A DNA stretch of 32,956 bases, from the IMG/VR virus record IMGVR_UViG_3300048927_000284, positions 1-32,956 of that record; one strand, 5' to 3'. This DNA is from a virus. Shown here in pieces: positions 2,101-32,956 of the stretch (positions are counted from its first letter, which is position 1; every line of letters begins with the position of its first letter). Under the pieces are notes generated by a model, which saw only the letters and a list, made by a program, of their open reading frames with translations, did not search any database and was not told the origin of the DNA. The translations under genes were made by a program, and so were the position numbers.

Positions 2101-3594
2101 TTATACGGTCCACGTGGACGCGAGCCCGTTCAGGACGCCGCTCATTAGAATGTGGCCCGCCGTGGACGGGTGCAGGCCGTCTGCCGTCAGGTAGTTGGCC
2201 GTGCCGTTCACTGCCCACTTGTCGGTATTGGTGGGGTCGCACACGGACGAGTTCAGATCGATGATGCCGTCGATGTTCCCGGCTACTACCTGCGACGGCA
2301 GCCATGCGTTGAACTGGCCGCGAACTTCGCTCGCGCCGTAGCCGGCCGAGACGGTTTGGTTTGCCAGCGTTGCCCAGCTGTCGGTCGATGTGGTTTTCGG
2401 CGTCAACGTGGTCTGATACACCTTGACTCCCATCCGTTTTGCAGCTGCCCACGCGACTTGAACGTTGGCTTGAAGCTGCGCCAGCGTGCGGCCCGCGGAG
2501 ATGTCGTTGATGCCCATCGCGAAAATGGCATGCGTCACGTACTCAAGCAAGCTCCAACGCGTGCCCTGGTAGCCGATGGCTGCAGATGACCAAGTCGCAG
2601 TGCTGTCTCCCGAGCGGGAAACATTGACGAACGGGATGTTTGTGCCCCCAGCGGCCGCGCCAACGAGACCACGTTCAGCCCAGCCGACATGGCCATAGGT
2701 CGTTTCTCCGTTGATTGCATCGCCAGTTCCGTACGTGATGCTATCGCCCCACAGCAGCGCCGCTGCATGGCGCTGGTCCGGAACCCCGATAACAGCCAGC
2801 GGTACAAAGCCGTAGGTAGCGTTCGTGCCGCCAGATGGCAGCGTCATGCCGGAACCGCTGTAGACCTGTGACGCGGCGGAGGTGCTGTCGTAACCGCCGT
2901 ATTGATACGAGGACGGCTGCCCGACAGGCACTTTCTGGCCGGCGGAAACCACGGCTGCACTCCGCAGCTGCAATTGCGCGTTGGCCGGCAGGTTGAGTCC
3001 TAGCTTGTCCGCCATGACAAACGGCGCACCCTGCCCGAGCAACGGATTTTTGAGGCCCCCGAACGTCAAGGGGAGCGGCTGGTTCCCCCACACAACGGCG
3101 CCTTCCAGCTGGAAGTCATTTGCGTTCGTCCAGTTTTCCCCGCCACCAATCGCAGACCTGTTGCAATACACGACTCGCAGGGAATTCACCGGACGCGGGC
3201 CGATTCGCACCCACAGATACGATTCGAATCGCGTGTAGTTCGATGCGCCCGCGCCTTCGACGTTGATCGGCATGCGGCCGCGTGTTGCGACAACCTGTAG
3301 GCGCGGCCCCGCCACCGGGGACGGCTGAACGTCGTTGCTCGGGTCGTTCAGGGTTATGTCGGTGATCGCCTGGCTGACAACCCCTTTGCCCGTGATGGTC
3401 AGCGTGTAGTGGCCGTCTGCAGCGTAGAAGGAGAAGCGCCCAGTGGTATCAGTCTTCACCGAAGCTACAGCCGAGCCACCGTCAGTAGCGTAGATCGTGG
3501 CCGGCTGGCCGCCTGGGTACGTGGTGACCGTGACAGTCAGGCCCGCAATCGGTTTGCCCTGCTTGTCGAGTACGACGTCGGAATACTTTTGCAT
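2101..3594 (-). CDS. Tailspike/tail fibre with SGNH esterase domain (copy A)
   Basis: The 497-residue protein begins with a transthyretin-like beta domain (residues about 5-72, Gly-Lys-Pro-Ile-Ala-Gly-Leu-Thr ... Asp-Gly-His-Tyr-Thr-Leu) that often anchors phage fibres, followed by a beta-rich middle. From about 278 an SGNH/GDSL hydrolase follows: Gly-Asp-Ser at 283-285 (nucleophile Ser285), block II Gly at about 329, Gly-Ile-Asn-Asp at 361-364 and Asp-Gly-Leu-His at 472-475 (Asp472, His475). All four catalytic blocks are intact. Related virion esterases remove O-acetyl groups from surface polysaccharide, and that role is inferred here. The start chosen is the Met whose ATG overlaps the upstream stop by one base; an ATG nine codons earlier would run into that gene. 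Confidence 0.82.
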   Translation of the reverse strand: MQKYSDVVLDKQGKPIAGLTVTVTTYPGGQPATIYATDGGSAVASVKTDTTGRFSFYAADGHYTLTITGKGVVSQAITDITLNDPSNDVQPSPVAGPRLQVVATRGRMPINVEGAGASNYTRFESYLWVRIGPRPVNSLRVVYCNRSAIGGGENWTNANDFQLEGAVVWGNQPLPLTFGGLKNPLLGQGAPFVMADKLGLNLPANAQLQLRSAAVVSAGQKVPVGQPSSYQYGGYDSTSAASQVYSGSGMTLPSGGTNATYGFVPLAVIGVPDQRHAAALLWGDSITYGTGDAINGETTYGHVGWAERGLVGAAAGGTNIPFVNVSRSGDSTATWSSAAIGYQGTRWSLLEYVTHAIFAMGINDISAGRTLAQLQANVQVAWAAAKRMGVKVYQTTLTPKTTSTDSWATLANQTVSAGYGASEVRGQFNAWLPSQVVAGNIDGIIDLNSSVCDPTNTDKWAVNGTANYLTADGLHPSTAGHILMSGVLNGLASTWTV

Positions 3595-3905
3595 CAGATG
3601 CGCCCCTCGTAAATGCGGCATTTCGTGTGCTCAGCCAAGAACTGGTCGAGCAGCCTGTCGTCGGCGGAAACGATTTCCCAGCCGACGCCGTGTTTCTCCA
3701 AGCCCCAGGCGTTGAGCAGGTCGAGCGGGATCGACGCCGCGTAGTGGTCGCCATCGTGCGTCTTGGTGGCGCCGGCGCGGCGCAGTTCTTCGTTCCGGCG
3801 CAGCGCAGCCGATACGTCAGTCGACTGCACGATCAGGCCGGTGCCGTCGCCGTGCTCGTGCATCGTCAGGCGGCTGTTTGCGTTTGCGTCGAGAAGGAAG
3901 TCCAT
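3594..3905 (-). CDS. Hypothetical phage protein downstream of major capsid gene
   Basis: This is a 103-residue protein of unknown role. It is charged and soluble with no membrane segment; the N-terminus (Met-Asp-Phe-Leu-Leu-Asp) is followed by a beta-rich part, then a helical stretch with several Leu/Arg/Glu residues and a compact alpha/beta C-terminus ending Tyr-Glu-Gly-Arg-Ile. It lies between the capsid gene, from which it is separated by an intrinsic terminator, and the tailspike gene, which it touches with a one-base stop/start overlap. The junction suggests coupling with the tailspike. A small head-completion or decoration role would fit the position, but nothing in the sequence shows it. 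Confidence 0.7.
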   Translation of the reverse strand: MDFLLDANANSRLTMHEHGDGTGLIVQSTDVSAALRRNEELRRAGATKTHDGDHYAASIPLDLLNAWGLEKHGVGWEIVSADDRLLDQFLAEHTKCRIYEGRI

Positions 3906-3978: not shown

Positions 3979-4920
3979 TCAGGCGAGGTCCAGGATCGCG
4001 CCGTGGGCCTTCGTGTTCTTGTTGATCAGCGTCCACTCGGTGTTGACCAGCACGTTCTGCGTGTCGCCGATCTTGGCCAGCGGGGAATCCTTCATGCCGC
4101 GCAGCGTGCCCAGCGCCAGGAACTCCGGGTTGATGATCGCGACTTCGCGCTGACGCATGTGGCGCGCGTTCACGGCCTTAACGCGGCCGAACGAGCCGAT
4201 GTAGACCTCCAGCGTTGCCGTCAGGGTCTTGTCTTCGGCCTTGTCGAAGCGGGTTTGGCCGGCCAGGAACGTGTCGAACACGGTGCGCTGGGTCGACGGC
4301 AGCAGGATGTAGCTGCTGCTGATGTCCGAACCGTTGTCGAACATGGTTTGCAGCACGTTTTTCAGCAGGGTTTCGCTGAACGCACGCTGCGTGCCGTCGA
4401 CGGCGGCGGTATTGGTCACCGGGTTGGCGGCCACGCCGGAGGCGCCGAGCGAGACGTTGCTGTCCATGAAGCCGAACAGGCCACGCGCCTGCGGGGCGAC
4501 GCCGGCGGATGCTGCGATCGCGGTCGTGTTCTGTAGGCAGCCGAATTCGACGTCTTTCTTCAGCTCGACCATCTTCTTGGCGAGCTGATAGTTGTATTCC
4601 GACTTGGTGCCGGCCTTTTCGACGGCTTCCTGGGTGCCGGTCACGCCGAAGGTCTTTTCGGAGATCTGCGTGCGGTTGCCCAGACGGACGGTCGGCTGAA
4701 CGGCGTTGATGGTCGACTGGTTGCCCTGCTCGACCTTGTTCACGGCGCCGGCCGCGTACGAGTCGGTATTCCACTCGACGAACACGCCGTCGACTTTTTC
4801 CTTGCCGATCAGCTTGACGAACGGGGTCTCGGAGACCGACACGTTCCAGATGTTGTTCATCAGCTGTTCACGGTTGCGAACGCTGTTGAAGGTTGCATAG
4901 GTGTTTGCTACTTGTGCCAT
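3979..4920 (-). CDS. Major capsid protein (SU10-type, DUF5309-like)
   Basis: The 313-residue protein starts Met-Ala-Gln-Val-Ala-Asn-Thr-Tyr and shows the features of the SU10-type HK97-fold coat proteins: an N-terminal arm with Pro-Phe-Val-Lys-Leu-Ile-Gly-Lys, a long central helix-rich stretch (Tyr-Asn-Tyr-Gln-Leu-Ala-Lys-Lys-Met-Val-Glu-Leu-Lys-Lys-Asp), and a C-terminal beta part with Arg-Glu-Val-Ala-Ile-Ile-Asn-Pro-Glu-Phe. It forms the icosahedral head. The ribosome site (AAAGGAA, 6 bases before ATG) is good, as expected for the most abundant virion protein. It follows the scaffold gene by 11 bp and is followed by a strong terminator, so scaffold and coat form a discrete high-output pair. 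Confidence 0.9.
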   Translation of the reverse strand: MAQVANTYATFNSVRNREQLMNNIWNVSVSETPFVKLIGKEKVDGVFVEWNTDSYAAGAVNKVEQGNQSTINAVQPTVRLGNRTQISEKTFGVTGTQEAVEKAGTKSEYNYQLAKKMVELKKDVEFGCLQNTTAIAASAGVAPQARGLFGFMDSNVSLGASGVAANPVTNTAAVDGTQRAFSETLLKNVLQTMFDNGSDISSSYILLPSTQRTVFDTFLAGQTRFDKAEDKTLTATLEVYIGSFGRVKAVNARHMRQREVAIINPEFLALGTLRGMKDSPLAKIGDTQNVLVNTEWTLINKNTKAHGAILDLA

Positions 4921-6802: not shown

Positions 6803-9286
6803 TTACGCCACCGCTACCGAAGTGACGACATTTCGGCCGTCTGCCATCTGAATGACCGCGCAACCTGTACCACCGCTCGGTAGGGTCGACTGGACGTTGA
6901 ACGTCAGCACACCCGAGGCATTGGTGGAGCCGCCACTCGTCTTGTAACGAGGCACGCTGTGCAGATCCGGGGTCGCCTCGTCGTAGAACGCGATCTTCAT
7001 GCCGGCCAGGTTGGCCGCGGGGATCGGATTGCCATTCGTGTCGGCACTACCAGCCAGCGTCAGCGTCACCGTGCGCGACGTCAGCGTCGGTGCGGCGACA
7101 ACGCCAGTCAATGCGGTGCGGATCGCAGCTGCCGACATTGGCCCGAGGCGATTCATGCTCACGTTGCCGTAAGGGTGCAAGGTGTCTGCACTGTTGGACG
7201 TGATGAACCAGCCGTTCGTATCGACGTAGGTGACACGTGCAGGGTTCGTACACGCCGCGATCGCGCTTTGCAGCTGCGTTGCGTGTGTCGCGTCCTTGAA
7301 CGGCCGGAACACAATGATCTTCGTTGCATCGGGCGTCGCGGCCAGCAGTGCATTGAGCACGGTTGTCGCCGTACTGGTCACGTCGACCGAATCGTTCGTG
7401 CCGTGGTTGATCGCGATGAAATCCGGCGCGGGCGAGAACGACCTCGCAACGCCCGAGTATTGCAGGCTGTACGCATCGGAGAACGCTGGCACGCCTGCGC
7501 TGCCCACATTTGTCCAGCCTTGCGATCCGAAGCCGACAATGCCCATCTCGGCGCCGAGGATCAGGCCAGCTTGATAGGCCCAGGCGATCCGCGAATTCGC
7601 GCGATCCATGTCGTTCGTGTACGTGCCGTCCATCGTGCGGATGCCTTCGGTGATGCTGTCACCAAAGAACAGGCCACGCAGGGGCTTGGCCGTCATCGCT
7701 GCGATGGTGGCGCCCGCATCGAGCACAATGCCCGTCAGGACGAGCGCGGCAGCTTGCGGCGTCCAGCGGTTGCCGCTCAGGTACGAGCTTTTGAACACGA
7801 CTTCGAGAACGTGCCCGCCCTTGTTGTTCCAGGCGGACGTCGTGTTCGGCACGGCGATCGTGACGCTTGCCGCGATGTTGACCGTCGTCCAGCCGCCAAC
7901 ACCGTCCACGAGGTACGAGATCTGCGGAACCGGCGACGTGATGTTGGTCATGTCGAAGTTCAGCACGCACGTCGAACCCGTGAACAGCGTCTTGAAATAG
8001 GCGCCCGGGTTGATTGTCTTGGCCGAGCTCGCGCCAATGTCCCAGTTGTACGGCGAGAACAGAACGTTGCTGGTACCGTTGGTCAGCACGTTGTTGCTCG
8101 TCGAGCTGGACGTCGTGACAGACGTTGTGATCGCGCTCGACCGATTGCCAGCGGCGTCATAGTCGCGGACCTGCGGATTATACGTCGTGCCCGATGCCAG
8201 CCCGCTGACGGCCTTCGTGAGCACGTTGCCCACGTCGTTCCAGTTCGTCCCGTCGATCGTGTATTCGTATCCAGTGACCCCCACGTTATCCGAACCGGCC
8301 GACCAGTTCAGGGTAAAGCCCGTCGTGGTGATAGCCGAGGTCGTCAGCGTCCCATTCATCGTCGGCGGCGTCGTGTCGCCCGTTGCTGCCGCCGTGTAGG
8401 TGATAGCCGTCGGATTCGTCAGGCCGCCATCGTTGGTAACGCCGATTGACCTGGCGCCCGTCGATCCCGCAGTGTAGGTGACCTGCGCTGTTGGGGATGC
8501 GCTGGTGATCTGGACGCTGGTCGGGTTGAACGTGCCGCCGGCGCCGCCGTCATTCGGCGTAACCGTCACGGTGCCGGTGATCGTACCGTTCGCGCCGATG
8601 GTGAATGGCGACGACGCGACACTCACCGTGCCTGTGGTCGGGCCACTCAGCGTGACAGCGGTAGCTGCCGATACCGCCGTACCATCGTCCAGAATGAAAT
8701 CGTCGACAGCCGTACCAACAACGCCGGCGCCCGTGCGGAACAGGCCCACATAGCCACTGGTGTACGACGCTTCGGTAAACGTTTGCGTCGGGGCTGTTGG
8801 CTTCGTGTCGACCGAACGCCAGATACGGATTTCATGCGTCGAGCCGCTGGAAATACATTCCACGTTGAGGATGTCGCCCGGCGCGAACGTCGTCGACATC
8901 GTGCTCCCGATCTGCGGCGCCGGAAACGTCCCGCTGGTGCGCTTGTACAGACGCGGAGTGATCTTGTTCGCGGTGGAGTTGAAGTCCAGCAGCCAAACGT
9001 AGCCGTTCTGGTAGGCCGAATCCATGCGCAGGACCGGCGAATAGTGACCTGCGCTGCTGGACGTCGTCACCAGCTTTTGCGTGTACTGGACTTTCGTGTA
9101 CGTGAGCGCTGCAGACCCCGTGTACAACGCAGTGTCTTGGTCGGCCGCAGTCGTGGTGCCGAACGTCTTGGTACCGGAAATCGGGTTGTTTGTTCCGACT
9201 GCCCAGGTGCCGGCCTTCGCGGTCCAACCCGGCGCAATCGCGCCGGATGTGTCTGAGTCGAAATTATCGGTATAGATTACGGTCAT
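6803..9286 (-). CDS. Large tailspike with SGNH esterase and fibronectin-type domains (copy B)
   Basis: This is an 827-residue multidomain protein. Residues about 1-205 resemble a LamG/jelly-roll beta domain; about 210-300 is a Gly/Thr-rich Ig-like block; about 305-395 is a fibronectin type III domain; about 400-520 is another beta-sandwich, possibly carbohydrate-binding; about 535-735 is an SGNH hydrolase with Gly-Asp-Ser 542-544, Gly-Phe-Gly block II at about 585-587, Gly-Thr-Asn-Asp 629-632, and Asp701/His704; the last ~85 residues are a beta-rich cap. Catalytic residues are intact. The build suits a polysaccharide-binding, de-esterifying tailspike, although cell-surface or secreted enzymes share the architecture. 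It is oddly placed between portal and scaffold genes. Confidence 0.8.
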   Translation of the reverse strand: MTVIYTDNFDSDTSGAIAPGWTAKAGTWAVGTNNPISGTKTFGTTTAADQDTALYTGSAALTYTKVQYTQKLVTTSSSAGHYSPVLRMDSAYQNGYVWLLDFNSTANKITPRLYKRTSGTFPAPQIGSTMSTTFAPGDILNVECISSGSTHEIRIWRSVDTKPTAPTQTFTEASYTSGYVGLFRTGAGVVGTAVDDFILDDGTAVSAATAVTLSGPTTGTVSVASSPFTIGANGTITGTVTVTPNDGGAGGTFNPTSVQITSASPTAQVTYTAGSTGARSIGVTNDGGLTNPTAITYTAAATGDTTPPTMNGTLTTSAITTTGFTLNWSAGSDNVGVTGYEYTIDGTNWNDVGNVLTKAVSGLASGTTYNPQVRDYDAAGNRSSAITTSVTTSSSTSNNVLTNGTSNVLFSPYNWDIGASSAKTINPGAYFKTLFTGSTCVLNFDMTNITSPVPQISYLVDGVGGWTTVNIAASVTIAVPNTTSAWNNKGGHVLEVVFKSSYLSGNRWTPQAAALVLTGIVLDAGATIAAMTAKPLRGLFFGDSITEGIRTMDGTYTNDMDRANSRIAWAYQAGLILGAEMGIVGFGSQGWTNVGSAGVPAFSDAYSLQYSGVARSFSPAPDFIAINHGTNDSVDVTSTATTVLNALLAATPDATKIIVFRPFKDATHATQLQSAIAACTNPARVTYVDTNGWFITSNSADTLHPYGNVSMNRLGPMSAAAIRTALTGVVAAPTLTSRTVTLTLAGSADTNGNPIPAANLAGMKIAFYDEATPDLHSVPRYKTSGGSTNASGVLTFNVQSTLPSGGTGCAVIQMADGRNVVTSVAVA

Positions 9287-9315: not shown

Positions 9316-11478
9316 TCATGTTTGCGGGAATGTGTCGTCGCCTTCGGTCATGCCGTGTTGCGGCTTCGTCGCTTCGTGCTCGGCGAGGATCTGGCCGTGT
9401 CGCTGTGCCTGATGCGCCATGGCGTCGTTCTGCGCGTCGCGGTGCAGGCTGTGCTCGAGCTCGATCTGCTTCTGGCCCAGTTCGATCTCCTTGATGCGCA
9501 CTTCCTTGTCCTTGATCTGCAGGTCGAGCGTCTTGAGCGCGGTTTCAGCCTGCAGCTTTGCGGCTGCGGCTGCGGCCTGCTGCTGGGCGTCCTCGCGCTT
9601 GCTCTGTGCTCGAATCTGCTCGGTCTGGATCTGCGCGTCCGCGAGGATCTGCTCGGGCGACTTCTGCGGCGGCTGCGGCGGCGTCTGGCTCGGGTCCGTG
9701 ATCAGCTTCGTCTCACCGCCCTGGATGTTGCCGGCCTTGAACAGCAGCTTGCCCAGCTCGTAGACGTTCTTCGGCGTGACCACGCCCAGCGGTGCGGCCT
9801 GCTGGAAGTAGGCGCCCATCATGTTGAGGAACTGGATCGTTTCCGACTTGTTGCCCGAGCCGAGGCCGACGTTGATGTTGACGTCCATCTCGCTCGACCA
9901 GTTGCGCGGGTCGTAGTCCACCCACGTGTTGCGCAGGCGGATCGTGGACGGCTTGTCCTGGTATTCGCAGGTCAGCTTCAGCAGGCGCTTGCACAGGTCT
10001 TTGCAGCCGGTCTCCGCGAACACACGCAGCATCATGAGCATGCGACGCTCGCCGGCGGACATGATCTTGTTGACGCCGGTAGCGGTCTTGTTGAGGCTGT
10101 CTGCGTCGAGGCCCTGCGAGTAGCGCGTGACGCCGATACGCTCTTCGCGCATGGTGTTCGCCAGCTCGATACCCTGCAACGATTCGTTCGCCACGAGCGA
10201 CGTCTGCAGCGGGCCAGCCATGCCAGGCGCCTTCATGCGCACGACCTTGCCGATCCGGGTCGACAGCAGATCATCCAAGTTCACCGAGTTGTCGACGGCG
10301 AAGGTGGTCGGGTTGTTCGCCAGGTACAGCGAGTCCATATATTGACGCGTCAGAGCCGTCTTCGTGTCCTGAATCGAGATGACCGGATCAGCCAAAGCCA
10401 TGCCGATGATGCGATGCGGCAGCAGGATCGGGGACCACAGGCAGTATTCGTGATCGTCGACCTCCTCGTTCTCAAGGATATCGTTACCGCCCATGAAAAC
10501 GCGGCGCCATTCAGCGATACCGTCGCCGTCGTAGTCGATGCGGATGAAGCCGAAGAACAGCGTCAGCTGCTGCAGCGCGCCTTCGCCCGTGTCTGCGTCG
10601 AATAGCGGATCCTGCTCGCGTACGGACAGCAGGTCGTGACCCGGGCCCGATGCTTGATAGTCCGACAGCAGGTCGATGCGCGCGCGGTCGAAGCCCATTT
10701 CGACGAGGTCGGAACGCGTGTACGTGCGCAGCTCACCGATGGCGGTCACATCGTCCAGCTTCTTGGCATGGCGCGACAGGACGAACGACTCAGGCGGCAC
10801 GTTGTCGATGCGTGCACCGCGCGGGCCGCTGTCCACGACCACGTCTACGTCGTGCAGCATGCGCAGCGGTTGTGTCAGCATGGCCATGGCCTGTTGTTGC
10901 TGCTCGGGCGGCAGGCTGTCGATCTGGTCAGCTGCTTGCTCACGCTGGGCCACGTCGTCCGGATCCGGCTCGGCGTCGTGCGACACGATCGTGATGCGCG
11001 GGTCGTTGACCATCTTTGCCAACTGCTGGTCGGTCAGGCCCTGGTAGCGCTCCTTCTTCTGCTTGCGCGAGGCGTCCCACCACACGCGGGTGATGCCGAC
11101 CTTGGACAGCAAGCCGTCCTTGATCCAGGTGTTGAACGTAATGAAGCCGTCGTTCTTCTTCTTGATCAGCCAGTTGATGTAGTCGGTAGCCTGGTCGGCG
11201 TAGTCCTCGTCACCTTGCGCAACCGGCTCAAACTCGCAGATGTTGTCACCAGCGAAGAACGGCTCCAGCAGTGCTGGAATGGCCGACTCGACCACTTCGA
11301 ACACGTCCCAGCTCACGACCTGGCTGCGGCCCGGCACCTCGTTACCCAGCGGCAGGCCGTGGTAATAGGCGAGGTTGCGCTCGCGATCGGATGCGAGAGC
11401 CGAGCTTGCCCAAGCGGCCGACTCGGACACTTCGCGGTCGACCGCGTTGCGCAGTTCGTCGTCGGTCATTTTGGTCAT
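9316..11478 (-). CDS. Portal protein (P22-type, ~720 residues)
   Basis: The 720-residue protein lies directly after the large terminase and has portal features: an N-terminal helix with Tyr-Tyr-His-Gly-Leu-Pro-Leu-Gly-Asn-Glu-Val-Pro-Gly-Arg-Ser, acidic beta segments, a Leu-Ala-Asn-Asn-Pro-Thr-Thr stretch, a crown helix with Ile-Gly-Val-Thr-Arg-Tyr-Ser-Gln-Gly-Leu-Asp, and a long Gln/Ala/Glu-rich C-terminal coiled coil (about 590-690), as in the long barrel of large podophage portals. The dodecameric ring sits at one head vertex and passes DNA. Start and terminase stop overlap in ATGA. A second Met at residue 4 is an alternative start. Confidence 0.88.
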   Translation of the reverse strand: MTKMTDDELRNAVDREVSESAAWASSALASDRERNLAYYHGLPLGNEVPGRSQVVSWDVFEVVESAIPALLEPFFAGDNICEFEPVAQGDEDYADQATDYINWLIKKKNDGFITFNTWIKDGLLSKVGITRVWWDASRKQKKERYQGLTDQQLAKMVNDPRITIVSHDAEPDPDDVAQREQAADQIDSLPPEQQQQAMAMLTQPLRMLHDVDVVVDSGPRGARIDNVPPESFVLSRHAKKLDDVTAIGELRTYTRSDLVEMGFDRARIDLLSDYQASGPGHDLLSVREQDPLFDADTGEGALQQLTLFFGFIRIDYDGDGIAEWRRVFMGGNDILENEEVDDHEYCLWSPILLPHRIIGMALADPVISIQDTKTALTRQYMDSLYLANNPTTFAVDNSVNLDDLLSTRIGKVVRMKAPGMAGPLQTSLVANESLQGIELANTMREERIGVTRYSQGLDADSLNKTATGVNKIMSAGERRMLMMLRVFAETGCKDLCKRLLKLTCEYQDKPSTIRLRNTWVDYDPRNWSSEMDVNINVGLGSGNKSETIQFLNMMGAYFQQAAPLGVVTPKNVYELGKLLFKAGNIQGGETKLITDPSQTPPQPPQKSPEQILADAQIQTEQIRAQSKREDAQQQAAAAAAKLQAETALKTLDLQIKDKEVRIKEIELGQKQIELEHSLHRDAQNDAMAHQAQRHGQILAEHEATKPQHGMTEGDDTFPQT

Positions 11479-21369: not shown

Positions 21370-21490
21370 GCTTTTTCTCCTTGGTGTTTCTGTAGGTAGG
21401 ACAGCCTTGCGGCTGGGTGCTTCTGCTGCTCTACGGTTTCTTCCTGCTGGCAATTTTTAGGACAGAGGAAGGTGATGCGGTGTTGCTGGG
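21370..21490 (-). other. Gap with open frame but no convincing start
   Basis: Between the cro-like gene and the next gene one frame is open and ends exactly in an ATGA overlap with the downstream start, ending Gln-Lys-His-Gln-Gly-Glu-Lys-Ala. It has no ATG after the cro stop and no ribosome site for GTG or TTG. It contains Leu-Cys-Pro-Lys-Asn-Cys, a possible half zinc knuckle. It may be a decayed gene or a leader. Confidence 0.3.
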
Positions 21491-21745
21491 TTAGGGAGAG
21501 GCGAGGCTCTTTAGCGAAGATCGACGGCGTGTCAACTCGGGCCAGATACGCTTCCAGTCCTCCGGGAAGAGTTCCTGGCGGGTCACGATTCCGCCCGTTG
21601 CACGCTCGATAGCGGCACCGTATTTGGTAGGAATTGGGCGTCCGCCTGCCAGCCAACGGCTGATGTCCGGAGCGTGCACGCCGATGGCTTTGGCTAATGC
21701 TGCTTTGCGGCCGCGCTGTTGAGAAAGGTAGGTAGACAGGTTCAT
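21491..21745 (-). CDS. Cro/YdaS-type early regulator
   Basis: The 84-residue protein has a Cro/YdaS helix-turn-helix at about 1-55: Met-Asn-Leu-Ser-Thr-Tyr-Leu-Ser-Gln-Gln-Arg-Gly-Arg-Lys-Ala-Ala-Leu-Ala-Lys-Ala, then Val-His-Ala-Pro-Asp-Ile-Ser-Arg-Trp-Leu-Ala-Gly-Gly-Arg-Pro-Ile-Pro and Ala-Ile-Glu-Arg-Ala-Thr-Gly-Gly-Ile-Val-Thr-Arg. It is the first leftward gene and diverges from the repressor gene, the standard Cro position, so it should oppose the repressor at the shared operators. No ribosome site precedes its ATG. The predicted transcription start falls on the A of the ATG, so the message appears leaderless at this gene. Confidence 0.85.
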   Translation of the reverse strand: MNLSTYLSQQRGRKAALAKAIGVHAPDISRWLAGGRPIPTKYGAAIERATGGIVTRQELFPEDWKRIWPELTRRRSSLKSLASP

Positions 21746-21751
21746 GCGTTT

Positions 21752-21780
21752 ATATTAGCCCAAGGCTAATGCAAACGCAA
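21752..21780 (-). promoter_or_regulatory. Leftward lytic promoter (pL-like)
   Basis: Read leftward, TTGCGT (21780-21775), a 17-bp spacer and TAATAT (21757-21752). Operator O1 covers most of the spacer and overlaps the -10 box, so bound repressor would block RNA polymerase. The rightward early promoter has the same structure. Confidence 0.8.
21754..21770. promoter_or_regulatory. Repressor operator O1 (perfect palindrome)
   Basis: ATTAGCC-CAA-GGCTAAT has perfect 7-bp arms. It lies inside the leftward promoter. The same site, read from the other strand, is repeated exactly at 23655-23671. Confidence 0.85.
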
Positions 21781-21787
21781 GTGATTG

Positions 21788-21804
21788 ATTAGCCAATGGC
21801 GAAT
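21788..21804. promoter_or_regulatory. Repressor operator O2
   Basis: ATTAGCC-AAT-GGCGAAT differs from the palindrome at one position in the right arm. Its centre is 34 bp from that of O1, just upstream of the leftward -35 box. Confidence 0.75.
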
Positions 21805-21820
21805 TCAGCCTATGGCAAAT
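21804..21820. promoter_or_regulatory. Repressor operator O3 (weak copy)
   Basis: TTCAGCC-TAT-GGCAAAT matches 5 of 7 and 6 of 7 arm positions. Its centre is 16 bp from that of O2. It overlaps the expected -35 region of the repressor promoter, so it could mediate self-repression or Cro control. Confidence 0.55.
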
Positions 21821-21828
21821 GTGACGTC

Positions 21829-21834
21829 TAATAC
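21829..21834 (+). promoter_or_regulatory. Candidate -10 of the repressor maintenance promoter
   Basis: TAATAC matches the -10 consensus in 5 of 6 positions, with no good -35 box, as in activator-dependent lambda pRM. The expected start is at or next to the ATG at 21839, implying a leaderless message. Confidence 0.5.
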
Positions 21835-21838
21835 ACGA

Positions 21839-22261
21839 ATGAAGAAAATTGAAGAGATCCGGCGCGATAATCTGCAGCGCCTGCGCGATGAGCTAGGGAG
21901 TGTGAAGCAGCTAGTCGAAGTGACCGGCAAGAGCCAGTCGCAGATCAGCCAATGGCTGAACGGATCCGCTCACTCGGTCACGGGGAAGCCGAGAGTAATA
22001 AGCAGCGGTGCTTGCAGGGAGATCGAGAAGGCGACCGGGAAGCCCGATGGATGGATGGATGTGGAACAAACGTCATTGACCCTAGTAGAGCCAACAGAGG
22101 TAACAGCCTTGCGTAGGCTGCTTAACGAAACCTCATCTGAAATCCGCCTTCTTTCGGTGTATCGGCTTGCGAGCGCGGACCAGCGGGAACTGATAGACGG
22201 TGCCGTTAGACTCGTGATCGAGCAGCTCGACATCCCTGCTTTCCTCAGTGTTCGCAAGTGA
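21839..22261 (+). CDS. Prophage repressor lacking an S24 peptidase domain
   Basis: The 140-residue protein has an N-terminal repressor DNA-binding domain (about 1-73): Arg-Arg-Asp-Asn-Leu-Gln-Arg-Leu-Arg-Asp-Glu, then Ser-Gln-Ser-Gln-Ile-Ser-Gln-Trp-Leu-Asn-Gly-Ser and Glu-Ile-Glu-Lys-Ala-Thr-Gly-Lys-Pro-Asp-Gly-Trp-Met-Asp, the signature of CI-like repressors of betaproteobacterial prophages. In those relatives a LexA-like S24 peptidase follows. Here there is only a ~65-residue helical tail (Leu-Leu-Ser-Val-Tyr-Arg-Leu-Ala-Ser-Ala-Asp-Gln-Arg-Glu-Leu) with no Ser/Lys catalytic pair, so it cannot self-cleave. The start is set by the TAATAC box and lack of ribosome sites; Met at 21785 or 21812 would overlap operators. 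Its 3' end overlaps a convergent gene by 129 bp. Confidence 0.85.
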   Translation: MKKIEEIRRDNLQRLRDELGSVKQLVEVTGKSQSQISQWLNGSAHSVTGKPRVISSGACREIEKATGKPDGWMDVEQTSLTLVEPTEVTALRRLLNETSSEIRLLSVYRLASADQRELIDGAVRLVIEQLDIPAFLSVRK

Positions 22262-22378
22262 CACGCTTGCTTCTCCTGGGAAGCTGCGCAAGAGCTGCCG
22301 GGCCATGCCGAGCAAGTAGCTCCGGCCAGCCTCGCTCATCATTGAGTACATCGTTTCGATCTCTGGAAGGTTGTTCAT
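22133..22378 (-). CDS. Candidate SOS-controlled antirepressor (convergent with repressor)
   Basis: The 81-residue protein starts Met-Asn-Asn-Leu-Pro-Glu-Ile-Glu-Thr-Met-Tyr with AGAGG five bases upstream. Its first half is a helical unit (Met-Met-Ser-Glu-Ala-Gly-Arg-Ser-Tyr-Leu-Leu-Gly-Met-Ala-Arg-Gln-Leu-Leu); the second half is antisense to the repressor tail and ends basic (Arg-Lys-Pro-Ile-His-Arg-Lys-Lys-Ala-Asp-Phe-Arg). A perfect LexA-type box lies about 58 bp upstream of the start. Small SOS-driven proteins that inactivate a non-cleavable repressor are known (186 Tum, Gifsy antirepressors), and this gene has the right position, size and control. That function is inference: no homology was seen, and a purely antisense role is possible. 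Confidence 0.6.
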   Translation of the reverse strand: MNNLPEIETMYSMMSEAGRSYLLGMARQLLRSFPGEASVSLANTEESRDVELLDHESNGTVYQFPLVRARKPIHRKKADFR

Positions 22379-22410
22379 ACTGACCTCTGGCAACTAACGC
22401 TGTTGTAGTT

Positions 22411-22432
22411 TTCAATGCTGTTCCGCATTGAA
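22411..22432. repeat. Inverted repeat beside the LexA box
   Basis: Perfect arms TTCAATGC and GCATTGAA are separated by 6 bp; flanking GTAG/CTAC can extend the stem around a TT bulge. It lies between the SOS box and the candidate antirepressor start and could be a second operator or a leader-RNA hairpin. Confidence 0.7.
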
Positions 22433-22456
22433 CTACTGTACACCCATACAGTAGTT
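22431..22456. promoter_or_regulatory. LexA/SOS box in a perfect inverted repeat
   Basis: Ten-base arms AACTACTGTA and TACAGTAGTT flank 6 bp. The inner part is CTGT-N8-ACAG (22436-22451) with TA flanks on both sides, matching the LexA consensus TACTGTA...TACAGTA at every conserved base. No clear promoter could be assigned on either strand, but the nearest downstream gene is the candidate antirepressor on the minus strand. Confidence 0.85.
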
Positions 22457-22654
22457 AACGCTAGCATTCGGACATGAATCCATTGAAGTCCGGCAATTAA
22501 TATAGACCCACTGTATGTACTTACGCTACCTCCAATCGTATGTTTCGCGGGTTACGACCGCTACAGAAGCTGATACGTCACACTTTCTCATAGTGGCCGA
22601 ATCTGAGGCGGACGGCAGAATGTGACAAGCTCTGGTGTTGTTTTTCTGTGGTGT
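22457..22654. other. Non-coding gap between SOS box and Arc-like gene
   Basis: No credible gene is seen on either strand: the one short minus frame (22526-22720) has no ribosome site and unlike composition. The stretch is A+T-richer than its surroundings and probably holds the promoter of the Arc-like gene, which I could not place. Confidence 0.5.
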
Positions 22655-22674
22655 CAGATGTGGCACCACATCTG
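22655..22674. promoter_or_regulatory. Palindrome upstream of the Arc-like gene (candidate operator)
   Basis: CAGATGTGG-CA-CCACATCTG has perfect 9-bp arms. It lies 34 bp before the start of a ribbon-helix-helix gene; such proteins usually bind a palindrome in their own promoter. Confidence 0.65.
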
Positions 22675-22688
22675 TTTTGTTGTTTGCT

Positions 22689-22709
22689 ATCGCGCAACAA
22701 TCGCGCGAT
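22689..22709. repeat. Inverted repeat at the Arc-like start codon
   Basis: ATCGCGC-AACAATC-GCGCGAT has perfect 7-bp arms, the right arm running into the ATG. It could be a second operator or an RNA stem that hides the start. No ribosome site is present here. Confidence 0.55.
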
Positions 22710-22932
22710 GGAAAATTCAAGCAAATCGAAGAGGAGTCAGCGAACCTTGCGCTTGCCTCCAGACCTACAAAAAGAGATTGATGAAGCCGCTGCGCTGGCG
22801 GGTCATTCTGCTAACGAAGAGATCGTGCGGCGCCTTCGGGCGTTTGCTCAGTCGGCCAGCCTGGCGGACATCATCAAGCAGAATGCCGAGCTGAGGCGAA
22901 TGCTGCAGCAGCTGATAGACCGGCAGGGATGA
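22708..22932 (+). CDS. Arc/Mnt-like ribbon-helix-helix regulator
   Basis: The 74-residue protein reads Lys-Arg-Ser-Gln-Arg-Thr-Leu-Arg-Leu-Pro-Pro-Asp-Leu at the N-terminus (the DNA-contacting beta strand), then two helices (Glu-Ile-Asp-Glu-Ala-Ala-Ala-Leu-Ala-Gly and Ser-Ala-Asn-Glu-Glu-Ile-Val-Arg-Arg-Leu), the Arc pattern, plus a C-terminal coiled-coil-like tail (Asn-Ala-Glu-Leu-Arg-Arg-Met-Leu-Gln-Gln-Leu). Arc and Mnt of P22 regulate immunity genes, including an antirepressor, so a role at the neighbouring switch is attractive. The stop TGA overlaps the start region of the lipoprotein gene, so the two are co-expressed. Confidence 0.82.
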   Translation: MENSSKSKRSQRTLRLPPDLQKEIDEAAALAGHSANEEIVRRLRAFAQSASLADIIKQNAELRRMLQQLIDRQG

Positions 22933-22934
22933 GT

Positions 22935-23501
22935 ATGAAAAAGATTGTTTTGATCGGATTGGTTGCAACTTTGGCAGCCTGCGCGACGCCGCAACGGGAG
23001 ACCCGAAAGTTTCTTACGCAAGAGCGCGCGATCGCAAAAACTTGTCTTGCTCCTACCTCGAGCATGACAGCCGAGCAGCGTTTCACTGTAGACCCAGTGA
23101 CGCACAAATCGCCTATGACGGGCTTCGTGAACTGTTACTCGAATGAGGTGCTTACGGTAGCGAACATGATGCAGTACGCCCGCTTGGACATCGTCTACGC
23201 TTACCTTGGATACCTCGAGAGGCTTACGCAAGCCATGGACTCTGGAAGCATCGATACGCCGGCTGCGCTTTCATCCTTCAGACAGACCTCCAAAGCGTTT
23301 ACCGATTCGCTGGCCGCGGCCGATGCCCAGCAATCGGCACAGGAGACTCAGGCCCGACGAGACTTCGCTGATCGTCTAGCGGCTTTCGCCACCGTCATGG
23401 CAGCAGCTGACCGCCAGCGCGCTGCAGAGGCAGCAGCACGACGCCCCGTCGTGTGTACGTCGAGCGGCGTATACGTGCAGAACACAGTCGTCTGCCAGTA
23501 A
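22935..23501 (+). CDS. Lipoprotein, possible lysogenic-conversion protein
   Basis: The ~188-residue protein has a lipoprotein signal: Met-Lys-Lys-Ile-Val-Leu-Ile-Gly-Leu-Val-Ala-Thr-Leu-Ala-Ala-Cys, with Cys16 as the lipidated residue. The mature part is helical with a long Ala/Gln/Arg-rich coiled coil (about 115-165) and four further Cys, including two near the C-terminus. An ATG six bases earlier overlaps the preceding stop; the chosen one has AGGGA at better spacing. It is followed by a terminator. A rightward two-gene unit in the immunity region, active apart from lytic promoters, is typical of genes expressed by the lysogen; surface lipoproteins in that position often block superinfection. 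That role is inference. Confidence 0.78.
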   Translation: MKKIVLIGLVATLAACATPQRETRKFLTQERAIAKTCLAPTSSMTAEQRFTVDPVTHKSPMTGFVNCYSNEVLTVANMMQYARLDIVYAYLGYLERLTQAMDSGSIDTPAALSSFRQTSKAFTDSLAAADAQQSAQETQARRDFADRLAAFATVMAAADRQRAAEAAARRPVVCTSSGVYVQNTVVCQ

Positions 23502-23524
23502 AAAATCTCTCCACCTCAGATGCT

Positions 23525-23548
23525 AGCCCGCCGCGTGCGGGCTTTTTT
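23525..23548 (+). terminator. Intrinsic terminator after the lipoprotein gene
   Basis: The stem AGCCCGC/GCGGGCT with a 5-base loop is followed by TTTTT. It insulates the immunity-region unit from the rightward early operon. Confidence 0.9.
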
Positions 23549-23568
23549 ACGCCTGTACGGTTCGGAAC

Positions 23569-23575
23569 ATTAGCC
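23569..23575 (+). promoter_or_regulatory. Operator half-site
   Basis: A single ATTAGCC without a matching right arm lies 52 bp before the next operator. It may be a remnant or a weak third site matching O3. Confidence 0.35.
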
Positions 23576-23620
23576 GTCTGCACACTCGGTGCGACACCCC
23601 CCCGTTTCATCGACGAGAAT

Positions 23621-23637
23621 ATTAGCCTTTGGCGCAA
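23621..23637. promoter_or_regulatory. Repressor operator of the rightward region (imperfect)
   Basis: ATTAGCC-TTT-GGCGCAA: left arm perfect, right arm matching in part. Its centre is 34 bp from the perfect operator, the same spacing as O1-O2. Confidence 0.65.
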
Positions 23638-23644
23638 ATAGTTC

Positions 23645-23673
23645 TTGCGCGTCGATTAGCCTTGGGCTAATAT
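23645..23673 (+). promoter_or_regulatory. Rightward lytic promoter (pR-like)
   Basis: TTGCGC, exactly 17 bp, TAATAT; transcription should start near 23680. The spacer and -10 box contain the perfect operator. The last 21 bp through the -10 box and two further bases are identical to the leftward promoter. Confidence 0.82.
23655..23671. promoter_or_regulatory. Repressor operator of the rightward promoter (perfect)
   Basis: ATTAGCC-TTG-GGCTAAT is the same 17-mer as O1 read on the other strand. It overlaps the spacer and -10 box, so repressor binding would shut off the rightward operon. Confidence 0.85.
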
Positions 23674-23714
23674 AACTCCATCGAAACACAGCCGGCAGGG
23701 CGATGGAGAACACG

Positions 23715-23894
23715 ATGAGCGCAAAGAACCCATGCACCAATGGCCCGCGTCACAAGTGGGACTGGGTGAAGGACGTAACGAACGTCAAGGTATCGATCAC
23801 CAGCACTGCAACGCGCAAAACCTTCTCGCGCCGCGGCGTCTTTAAGTGTGAGTGCGGCGCAACCCGAGAAGGCCAACCGCGTACCGGGCTCTGA
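23715..23894 (+). CDS. Small early protein with Cys-X-Cys motif
   Basis: The 59-residue protein is the first gene of the rightward operon. The start Met-Ser-Ala-Lys-Asn-Pro-Cys has GGAGAA six bases upstream; an ATG four codons earlier would consume that site. It contains Cys-Thr-Asn-Gly-Pro-Arg-His-Lys-Trp-Asp-Trp and Cys-Glu-Cys-Gly-Ala, a possible metal knuckle seen in small phage proteins of similar position. Function unknown. Confidence 0.68.
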   Translation: MSAKNPCTNGPRHKWDWVKDVTNVKVSITSTATRKTFSRRGVFKCECGATREGQPRTGL

Positions 23895-23896
23895 CC

Positions 23897-24109
23897 ATGC
23901 GCCACTACGACGACTACGGCTACAGCGCCCGCCAGCGCCGAGAGGACGCAGCAGGCGACAAGCGCGCGCTGATCTTCGCTGCCGTGGAAGACGAACTGAT
24001 CTGCGAGTACCACGAAGAGGGCGGCATGCACAGCGATTACAAGCCGTCGTATGCGCTGGTGAATCGGATGGTTGAACAACGTATCGCAGCAATGAGGGAG
24101 CACGCATGA
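23897..24109 (+). CDS. Small acidic hypothetical early protein
   Basis: Met-Arg-His-Tyr-Asp-Asp-Tyr-Gly-Tyr-Ser-Ala-Arg-Gln-Arg-Arg-Glu begins a 70-residue helical protein ending in a basic helix. It starts two bases after the previous stop and its TGA overlaps the next ATG. No motif recognised. Confidence 0.65.
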   Translation: MRHYDDYGYSARQRREDAAGDKRALIFAAVEDELICEYHEEGGMHSDYKPSYALVNRMVEQRIAAMREHA

Positions 24110-31585: not shown

Positions 31586-31793
31586 TTTATGAAAATTTTA
31601 AACGAATTTCTGTAAATCGCTGCCCACCTCCTTTATTTGCGGGCGCGCTTCCAAGTAACTACATTTGAAAGCTAAATGAAGGGTTGCGCCGCCATAATCG
31701 CCCCATTCATCGGGCTGATCGGCCGTATCACCGTACCGGATAACTGTCCGGCCGGGTGCCACGGTCCGGGGCCACACAGGAGGAGAACACGCC
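31586..31793. other. Prophage-host junction region
   Basis: After the integrase stop, the first ~90 bp are A+T-rich (to about 31680) and then composition turns GC-rich like the host gene. The right attachment site should lie here. No tRNA gene or long direct repeat is visible. A short inverted repeat CCGGA-TAACTG-TCCGG (31736-31751) lies in the leader of the transporter gene and may belong to its control region. Confidence 0.5.
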
Positions 31794-32956
31794 ATGAACA
31801 CGAAAACCACGACCTACAACGCCACGTACGCAGACGCCCGGCCGGCCGCCGCGTCCTTCGCGGCCGGCTGCAAACGCCTGGCGCGCACCCGCATCGGCAT
31901 CGTGCCGCTGCCGGTCTACGTGCTGCTGCTGGCGCTGATCGCCGGCTTCGTCGCCACCGGCAAGGTGCCGAACGACATCTGTGTCTCGATCGCGATCCTG
32001 ACCGTGGGCGGCTTTTCGTGCGCGGAGCTGGGCAAGCGCCTGCCGTACCTGCGCAACATCGGCGCCGCCGCCATCTTCGCGACGTTCATCCCGTCGTACC
32101 TGGCGTTCAGCAAGCTGCTGCCGGCGCCCGTGCTGAAGAACGTCGTCGACTTCACGAAGTCGACCAATTTCCTGTACCTGTTCATCTCGTCGATCATCGT
32201 CGGTTCCATCCTCAGCATGGACCGCGACGTGCTGGTGAAAGGCTTCGTGAAGATCTTCGTGCCGCTGGCGACGGGGTCCATCGTGGCCGGCGCCGTCGGC
32301 ACGCTCGTCGGCACCCTGCTGGGCCTGGGGCCGTACCATACGTTCTTCTACCTCGTCGCGCCGATCATGGCCGGCGGCGTGGGCGAGGGCGCGATTCCGC
32401 TGTCGATCGGTTATGCGGGCATCCTCGGCGGCGAGCAGGGGCACCAGTTTGCCGAAGTGCTGCCGCCCGTAATGCTGGGCAGCCTGACGGCCATCCTGTT
32501 GTCGGGCATGCTGAATTCCCTCGGCAAGAAGCGCCCGCACCTGACTGGCGGGGGGCGCCTGCAGCCGGCGGAAGATGGCCTGGCGGCGCCGCAGGCGGAG
32601 ATGCCGTCCGGCCCGCTCGACCTCGGCAACGTCGCCGCGGCCGGCATCACGTCCATCGCGCTGTACATGGTCGGCATGATGTGCTTCCGGCTGTTCGAGT
32701 TCCCGGCGCCCGTCGCGATGCTGTTCGTCGCGGTGATGTTCAAGCTGTCGCGCCTCGTGTCGCCGCAACTGCAGCAGAGCTCGTACATCGTGTATAAATT
32801 CTTTTCGACGGCCGTCACGTACCCGCTGCTGTTCGCCATCGGTGCATCGATGACGCCGTGGGACAAGCTGGTGTCCGCGTTCAACGTGACGAACCTGGTC
32901 GTGATCGTGTCGACGGTCGCGAGCCTGATCGCCACCGGTTTCTTCGTCGGCCGCCG
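31794..32956 (+). CDS. 2-hydroxycarboxylate transporter (2HCT family), partial
   Basis: The frame is open to the right window edge for 387 codons and starts after AGGAGGAG. It is a multi-spanning membrane protein: hydrophobic segments begin at about residue 37, and the family signature Gly-Gly-Val-Gly-Glu-Gly-Ala-Ile-Pro-Leu-Ser is seen in Met-Ala-Gly-Gly-Val-Gly-Glu-Gly-Ala at the first re-entrant loop. Family members (CitS, CitP, MaeN) exchange or symport citrate and malate with sodium or protons across the inner membrane. A second half follows a basic cytoplasmic linker (about 250-280). About 50 residues are probably missing at the C-terminus. Nearly every codon ends in G or C, unlike the phage genes. 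It is host DNA. Confidence 0.9.
   Translation, partial: MNTKTTTYNATYADARPAAASFAAGCKRLARTRIGIVPLPVYVLLLALIAGFVATGKVPNDICVSIAILTVGGFSCAELGKRLPYLRNIGAAAIFATFIPSYLAFSKLLPAPVLKNVVDFTKSTNFLYLFISSIIVGSILSMDRDVLVKGFVKIFVPLATGSIVAGAVGTLVGTLLGLGPYHTFFYLVAPIMAGGVGEGAIPLSIGYAGILGGEQGHQFAEVLPPVMLGSLTAILLSGMLNSLGKKRPHLTGGGRLQPAEDGLAAPQAEMPSGPLDLGNVAAAGITSIALYMVGMMCFRLFEFPAPVAMLFVAVMFKLSRLVSPQLQQSSYIVYKFFSTAVTYPLLFAIGASMTPWDKLVSAFNVTNLVVIVSTVASLIATGFFVGR

Follow-up and report, generated by a model that had tools for sequence, protein, structure and literature searches.

Operator pairs 34 bp apart in a probable lambda-type phage immunity region, and the spacing classes of its repressor family

The DNA analyzed here, called the window throughout, is the whole 32,956-nucleotide IMG/VR virus record IMGVR_UViG_3300048927_000284. 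We describe a region in which a Cro-like gene and a cI-type repressor gene diverge, and in which two outward-facing promoters (PR and PL, right and left promoters) carry the same operator. We find that these operators (OR and OL, right and left operators) come in pairs whose centers lie 34 base pairs (bp) apart at both promoters. The central features are as follows.

21491 to 21745, minus strand: Cro-like repressor, 84 amino acids (Pfam YdaS, E value 6e-14; P22_Cro, 1e-6, below cut-off)
21752 to 21780, minus strand: PR-type promoter (-35 TTGCGT at 21775-21780, 17-bp spacer, -10 TAATAT at 21752-21757)
21754 to 21770: OR1, perfect operator ATTAGCC-CAA-GGCTAAT
21788 to 21804: OR2, one mismatch; center 34 bp from that of OR1 and 43 bp from the cI ATG
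21804 to 21820: degenerate operator-like site, three mismatches, at -27 from cI
21827 to 21832, plus strand: predicted -10 box TCTAAT of the repressor-maintenance promoter (PRM), 12 to 7 bases before the cI ATG, from a comparison of upstream regions
21839 to 22261, plus strand: cI-type repressor, 140 amino acids; helix-turn-helix (HTH) domain and a short, predicted-helical C-terminal part; a relative of KS9 gp41
23621 to 23637: OL2, three mismatches; center 34 bp from that of OL1
23645 to 23673, plus strand: PL-type promoter (-35 TTGCGC at 23645-23650, 17-bp spacer, -10 TAATAT at 23668-23673)
23655 to 23671: OL1, perfect operator ATTAGCC-TTG-GGCTAAT

An earlier note on this DNA had described two outward promoters of the form TTGCG(T/C)-17-TAATAT, each with an operator inside, and rechecking of sequence, hexamers, and spacing confirms them. 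The 21-mer that it reported as common to both is exact (23655-23675 is the reverse complement of 21750-21770). The perfect operator is, as claimed, the promoter-proximal copy at both promoters (starting at 21754 and 23655), and a second copy lies 34 bp upstream in each case (at 21788 with one mismatch and at 23621 with three). The weaker sites have opposite polarity, the OR2 mismatch falling in the cI-facing half and the OL2 mismatches in the OL1-facing half. With up to three mismatches, ATTAGCC-N3-GGCTAAT has eight matches in the window against 0.56 expected, a number reached in none of 100 shuffles. With up to two, the whole 33-kilobase record holds three sites, all within the OR and OL regions. 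These statistics and the retention of the 34-bp pairs in relatives rule out a chance origin of the layout. One further operator-like site (21944-21960) lies inside the HTH codons of cI and was set aside as a coding coincidence; it also occurs in L004 (5106-5122) and in the Pelistega locus L005 (5097-5113), where it is the only match.

The earlier note had proposed searching relatives for the 17-mer at 34-bp spacing. We find the double 34-bp layout in seven other IMG/VR phages: OR1-OR2 and OL1-OL2 both measure 34 bp in all eight members of the clade (repressors of 140-141 amino acids, the window included). Since seven related phages share it, the layout is not a product of chance. L013 and L064 are one contig, and it was the operator pattern alone that first brought L013 into the set. 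Across the clade the half-sites and distances are kept, and the operator spacers and flanks vary. PR reads TTG...-17-TAATAT in 8/8 members, and the -10 of PL is TAATAT in 6/8, with one-base variants in L062 and L065. OR2 occupies the same place in every member. All eight read GGCGAAT, with one deviating base, in its half toward cI; its half toward the promoter is perfect in five and has one mismatch in L062, L064, and L067. OL2 has a perfect outer half and a degenerate OL1-facing half in 8/8. No OR3 at -19/-20 scores above threshold in any of the eight. Conservation across these eight phages strongly supports the earlier proposal that one operator set represses two operons, with the logic of lambda OL and OR.

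Searches of viral_contigs returned two stretches with the exact 34-bp operator pattern. A looser one-site pattern gave 42 matches, and a second site (up to three mismatches, one of the pair perfect) lay within 60 bp in L007, L013, and L047 only. Because just three of these 42 have such a neighbor, a lone operator match is uninformative.

We surveyed the spacing across the wider repressor family. Loci came from repressor searches, phage records, and a search of 399 genomes in the order of G001 (a Pelistega genome), 14 of which gave a match. The 143 loci, some on the same contig twice, yielded 142 repressors; comparison of the first 120 residues leaves 96 distinct ones. Only palindromes upstream of cI (OR) served to define the operators, after which pairs 12-80 bp apart were looked for at OL. 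An OL pair needed a score of at least 22; in 940 runs on shuffled downstream sequence, the best pair never scored 23 or more and reached 22 three times. The core set comprises 83 loci in 61 clusters. Operators lacking TAGC (12 of 95 rows: L059, L123-L127, L140, L172, L177, L199, L203, and L208) were left out of it, and L200 gave no OR solution.

Spacing in the core set falls into discrete classes. Among the 39 clusters with a measurable OR pair, 24 lie at 23-26 bp, 14 at 34-35 bp, and one at 44 bp. The 53 accepted OL clusters are distributed as 30 at 25-26 bp, 20 at 34-35 bp, one at 45 bp, and two off these values: L070 at 58 bp, where a 26-bp pair scores equally, and L097 at 77 bp, where a 25-bp pair comes second. 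No OR or OL pair occurs at 36-43 bp, and the 44-45 class consists of L092 and L081 only. OR and OL classes can differ within a phage; OR1 at -66/-67 is combined with an OL of 35 bp in seven clusters, and L081 combines 34 bp at OR with 45 bp at OL. Positions relative to the genes are fixed as well. Of 59 core loci with a detected OR2, 57 have its center at -43/-44 from the cI ATG (search range -47 to -40 only); for OR3, 66 of 70 have it at -19/-20 (search range -23 to -16). Outside the window clade, OR3 is found within -23 to -16 in 48/53 core clusters. By a crude automatic choice of start, 52/83 loci have a distance of 17-18 bp between the OR1 center and the cro ATG; in the window it is 17 bp.

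A further scan added 26 new clusters, of which 18 have a measurable OR pair; L257 and L229 gave no OR solution, and six more no measurable pair. OR spacing in this later set is 23-26 bp in 12 clusters, 33-34 bp in five, and 39 bp in L262. The 14 accepted OL values are 25-26 bp (six), 34-35 bp (six), and 43-44 bp (two). Agreement with the classes of the first set is 16/18 for OR and 13/14 for OL, or 17/18 and 14/14 in windows widened by 1 bp after the data had been seen. We quote no overall probability because the clusters are not independent.

The values of 44 and 43 bp come from L251 and L256 and are sums over three sites. In the OL regions of these two loci three sites follow one another (22+22 and 23+20 bp), much as lambda OL1-OL3 do, and the operators are of the TTAAGC type.

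An association of long OR spacing with short repressors (under 190 amino acids, a criterion of length alone) was considered, as 14 of 15 long-spacing rows in the tree set were short. It was dropped because long repressors with long spacing appear in the later set (L237, L238, L242, and L243; 233-235 amino acids). Over both sets, the 33-35 class has 14 short and five long repressors, and the 23-26 class 23 short and 13 long.

The likeness to lambda proposed in the earlier note is upheld by the gene order, which is cro-OR-cI-cargo-OL as in lambda (NC_001416). Divergent cro and cI share operators between them, and a second operator set lies beyond cI over an outward early promoter. The earlier list of parts between the operators (Arc-like gene, lipoprotein, and SOS parts) was incomplete, as cI (21839-22261) lies between them too, again as in lambda. 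In both phages the two operator sets are about 2 kilobases apart, base 14 of OR1 is the first base of the PR -10 box and a 17-bp spacer separates this box from the -35, and OR2 stands at nearly the same distance from the cI start (43 bp in the window, 42 bp in lambda). However, the spacing of operators 1 and 2 is 24 bp in lambda and 34 bp in the window, at OR and OL alike. In lambda the final three bases of OR2 are also part of the -35 TTGACT, whereas the window -35 is clear of OR2 because the operators are 34 bp apart.

Other differences concern the third operators and the proteins. Lambda has three OR operators, with OR3 over PRM; the window has no OR3 at -19/-20, only the three-mismatch site at -27, and no third OL site was found. 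The operator sequence is different, and the cro start is close to the predicted +1. The lambda repressor is RecA-cleaved and has a C-terminal LexA-type peptidase domain; the window repressor, 140 amino acids long, has a predicted all-helical C-terminal part and no Pfam match to such a domain.

DNA has a helical repeat of 10.5 bp per turn, so that the 24 bp of lambda correspond to 2.3 turns and the 34 bp of the window to 3.2. The earlier description of 34 bp as about three turns is therefore wrong, the number of turns not being integral. The window spacing is instead close to the phase of lambda plus one turn.

The repressor matches phrog_12107, a “transcriptional repressor” family, over residues 1-77 (E 1.1e-21), and its HTH domain is homologous to KS9 gp41 (E 2e-8, 37% over residues 1-78). 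The predicted structure consists of an HTH domain and a small all-helical C-terminal part (mean predicted local distance difference test score, pLDDT, 78). The HTH domain is closest in fold to Rep of Salmonella phage SPC32H (PDB 5d50 and 5d4z), also its best sequence match (E 4e-5): Z score 12.8 and root-mean-square deviation 1.4 over 74 residues at 31% identity. This structural match covers residues 1-82 and says little on the C-terminal part.

We consider it likely that a temperate phage of the lambda type has its immunity region here, with cooperative CI binding at the 34-bp pairs. A dimer of the cI-type protein, probably not cleavable, would bind OR1 and OL1, which overlie the -10 and spacer of the two promoters, and further dimers would bind cooperatively at OR2 and OL2. 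OR2, at -43 from the cI start, would be placed to activate PRM as lambda OR2 does. Since the PRM and PR -10 boxes stand just before the ATGs, the cI messenger RNA may be leaderless, as at lambda PRM, and the cro messenger RNA likewise. The discrete spacing classes across the family suggest, indirectly, that binding is cooperative, and steps of about one turn suggest that the interaction of the dimers depends on phase. The added turn would keep the dimers in nearly the same relative phase and free the -35 boxes; for two dimers in contact on DNA, keeping the phase would mean changing the distance by about whole turns. Whether operator pairs in this widespread family evolve by such steps (23-26, 34-35, and 44-45 bp), OR and OL sometimes stepping differently and the longer steps freeing the -35, seems to us evenly balanced.

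Several results weigh against these proposals. OR2 did not score above threshold in 22 of the 61 core clusters, and the window OL2 carries three mismatches. A period of 9.5-10 bp describes the spacing steps better than one of 10.5 bp does. The OR spacing of L262 (39 bp) is a clear miss, and in L059, outside the core by its operator, an OR of 33 bp fits and OL values of 40 and 17 bp do not. Independent changes are also few: on the best tree the OR class changes six times and the OL class three times, and well-supported branches require just one of the OR changes. This tree is built on 80 columns and poorly resolved, omits L097, L107, L206, and L207, and was coded by hand for L205 (24-bp class) and the OL of L070 (26). 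A simple sigma-70 consensus scan of both strands from 21400 to 24000 found no promoter. As PR and PL fall below its threshold, we base both calls on position and conservation.

Promoter architecture alone might set the 34-bp class, OR2 and OL2 having moved upstream of the -35 and the dimers binding independently. At spacings of 24-25 bp the -35 overlaps the OR2 edge by 2-3 bp, as lambda TTGACT does, and at 34 bp a gap of 7 bp separates the two, so the 34-bp step removes the clash between OR2 and the -35; with the -35 clear, the promoter-facing half of OR2 is perfect in most clade members. Yet architecture alone would allow any larger distance, and what recurs is 34-35 bp, in 14 OR and 20 OL clusters, with 36-43 bp empty in the core and a third class at 44-45 bp (L092 and L081). 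This counter-evidence is itself weakened by the size of the third class, two clusters, and by L262 and the 40-bp OL of L059, which lie in the gap. We regard the architectural explanation as unlikely, though one to be taken seriously. Common descent with exchange between OR and OL, and no selection on distance, might also account for identical spacing, and the poorly resolved tree is compatible with a single origin of the 34-bp OR class. We think this improbable, as the distance is 34 bp at both places in 8/8 clade members despite diverged spacers and flanks, and as OR and OL classes differ within single phages (the seven clusters with OR1 at -66/-67, and L081).

The identity of the ligand can be questioned too. 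In lambda, CI and Cro bind the same sites, and both window proteins are HTH proteins with YdaS-type matches; the Cro-like protein (21491-21745) might thus be the main ligand, with the CI-like protein acting otherwise. Against this, the positions of OR2 and OR3 relative to cI are constant throughout the family, and the CI relative KS9 gp41 is a tested repressor, identified by inactivation (PMC8310193). We give the idea little credence, and the CI-like protein, rather than the Cro-like one, is the probable operator ligand, with which additional Cro binding stays compatible.

From the 3' end of the repressor gene up to OL lie the following features.

22133 to 22378, minus strand: convergent gene, 81 amino acids, overlapping the cI 3' end; candidate SOS antirepressor
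22436 to 22451: LexA-box match CTGTACACCCATACAG, upstream of the convergent gene
22708 to 22932, plus strand: Arc-like ribbon-helix-helix protein, 74 amino acids (phrog_228 Arc-like repressor, 9.6e-6; phrog_795, 1.6e-6; Pfam matches below cut-off)
22929 to 23501, plus strand: lipoprotein-like cargo gene, 190 amino acids, no family match above cut-off
23525 to 23543: terminator-like stem, 3' of the lipoprotein-like gene

Relief of repression after DNA damage probably depends on the convergent gene with its LexA box and not on cleavage of the repressor. The gene may encode an antirepressor. Its CTGT-N8-ACAG box is present in 7/8 clade members, and its open reading frame is kept in all six clade phages aligned. 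Compared with L004, its 39 non-overlapping codons differ at positions 1/2/3 in 10/3/17 cases, a coding-type change, and in the overlapping part the substitution pattern follows cI. The 81-amino-acid product has no PHROG match, no Pfam match above cut-off, and no PDB sequence match below E 0.4, and its structural model is poor (pLDDT 56). A possible mimicry of the CI C-terminal helices was rejected: profile comparison found nothing (probability 0.1-0.2%), and in an ungapped test 52 of 2000 column shuffles were as good, too weak for two amphipathic helices. An association of the LexA box with short repressors was first seen in 20/32 against 2/28 clusters (Fisher 9e-6, uncorrected for kinship); in the later set it was 2/16 against 0/8, so that the link is weaker than it first appeared.

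The layout, and the layout only, is that of LexA-controlled antirepressor systems, a repressor of the non-cleaved type with a small gene behind a LexA box. Such systems are known from the Gifsy phages and from Tum of phage 186, with a short non-cleaved repressor and a small LexA-controlled gene (PMC3121763). Unlike in these, the candidate gene in the window is convergent with cI. The Burkholderia phages KS9 and BgManors32 share with the window a related HTH domain, 7-3-7 operators with a TTAGC core, a short repressor, and a convergent LexA-boxed gene overlapping the 3' end of the repressor gene, although that gene looks, by eye, unrelated in sequence to the one in the window. They differ from it in the operator (TTTAGCG) and in having three OR sites, spaced 25 and 24 bp. 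Their OL pair is 25 bp in BgManors32 and in the KS9-like L184-L190, and none is above threshold in KS9 itself. SPC32H Rep is controlled by the antirepressor Ant (PMC9986798 and PMC7380047), which the window candidate does not match. Rep is also longer than the window repressor (199 amino acids), with other dimerization and tetramerization domains (PMC9986798).

Transcription would run leftward from PR into the Cro-like gene, rightward from OR into the repressor, Arc-like, and lipoprotein genes, and from PL into the other early operon. The genes between cI and OL vary among six phages (the window, L004, L013, L050, L051, and L052) and encode, by phage, Arc-like proteins, lipoproteins, or a small membrane protein. 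This interval (22708-23501 in the window) is a cargo slot, in the place where lambda carries rexAB (NC_001416 record). Because SU10-type portal and capsid genes are also present, together with a Terminase_3, an integrase, and an ERF recombinase, the record is probably a temperate phage or prophage.

Elsewhere in the record, SU10_MCP (E 1e-75) at 3979-4920 and SU10_portal (5e-189) at 9316-11478 stand alongside the integrase and the lambda-type switch. Two long GDSL lipase-domain proteins (2101-3621 and 6803-9286) lie among the structural genes, one with a weak tail-fiber N-terminal match. Open frames continue beyond the integrase (31676-32956); the one scanned (31728-32768, minus strand) has no Pfam match, and this end is possibly host flank.

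As a switch the region belongs to no new kind; what sets it apart is the extra helical turn between its operators, a feature seen repeatedly in the repressor family. The dependence of cooperative repressor binding on helical phase was reportedly worked out with engineered lambda sites; Hochschild and Ptashne are said to have separated lambda operators by integral turns in 1986 and to have found that the interaction depends on phase. Both their work and ours concern the helical phase between two sites, theirs engineered and ours a natural series. A literature search, judged from titles and the starts of abstracts and with most subscription papers outside its coverage, turned up no recognizable report of natural turn-wise operator spacing. 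If operators do shift by about one turn in nature, at two places per genome, then their distance would be selected through DNA geometry, and the family would amount to a natural series of helical-phase experiments. It would also supply existing constructs with which to ask how a small C-terminal domain bridges 24 or 34 bp, and the spacing rule would help to find switches in unannotated prophages.

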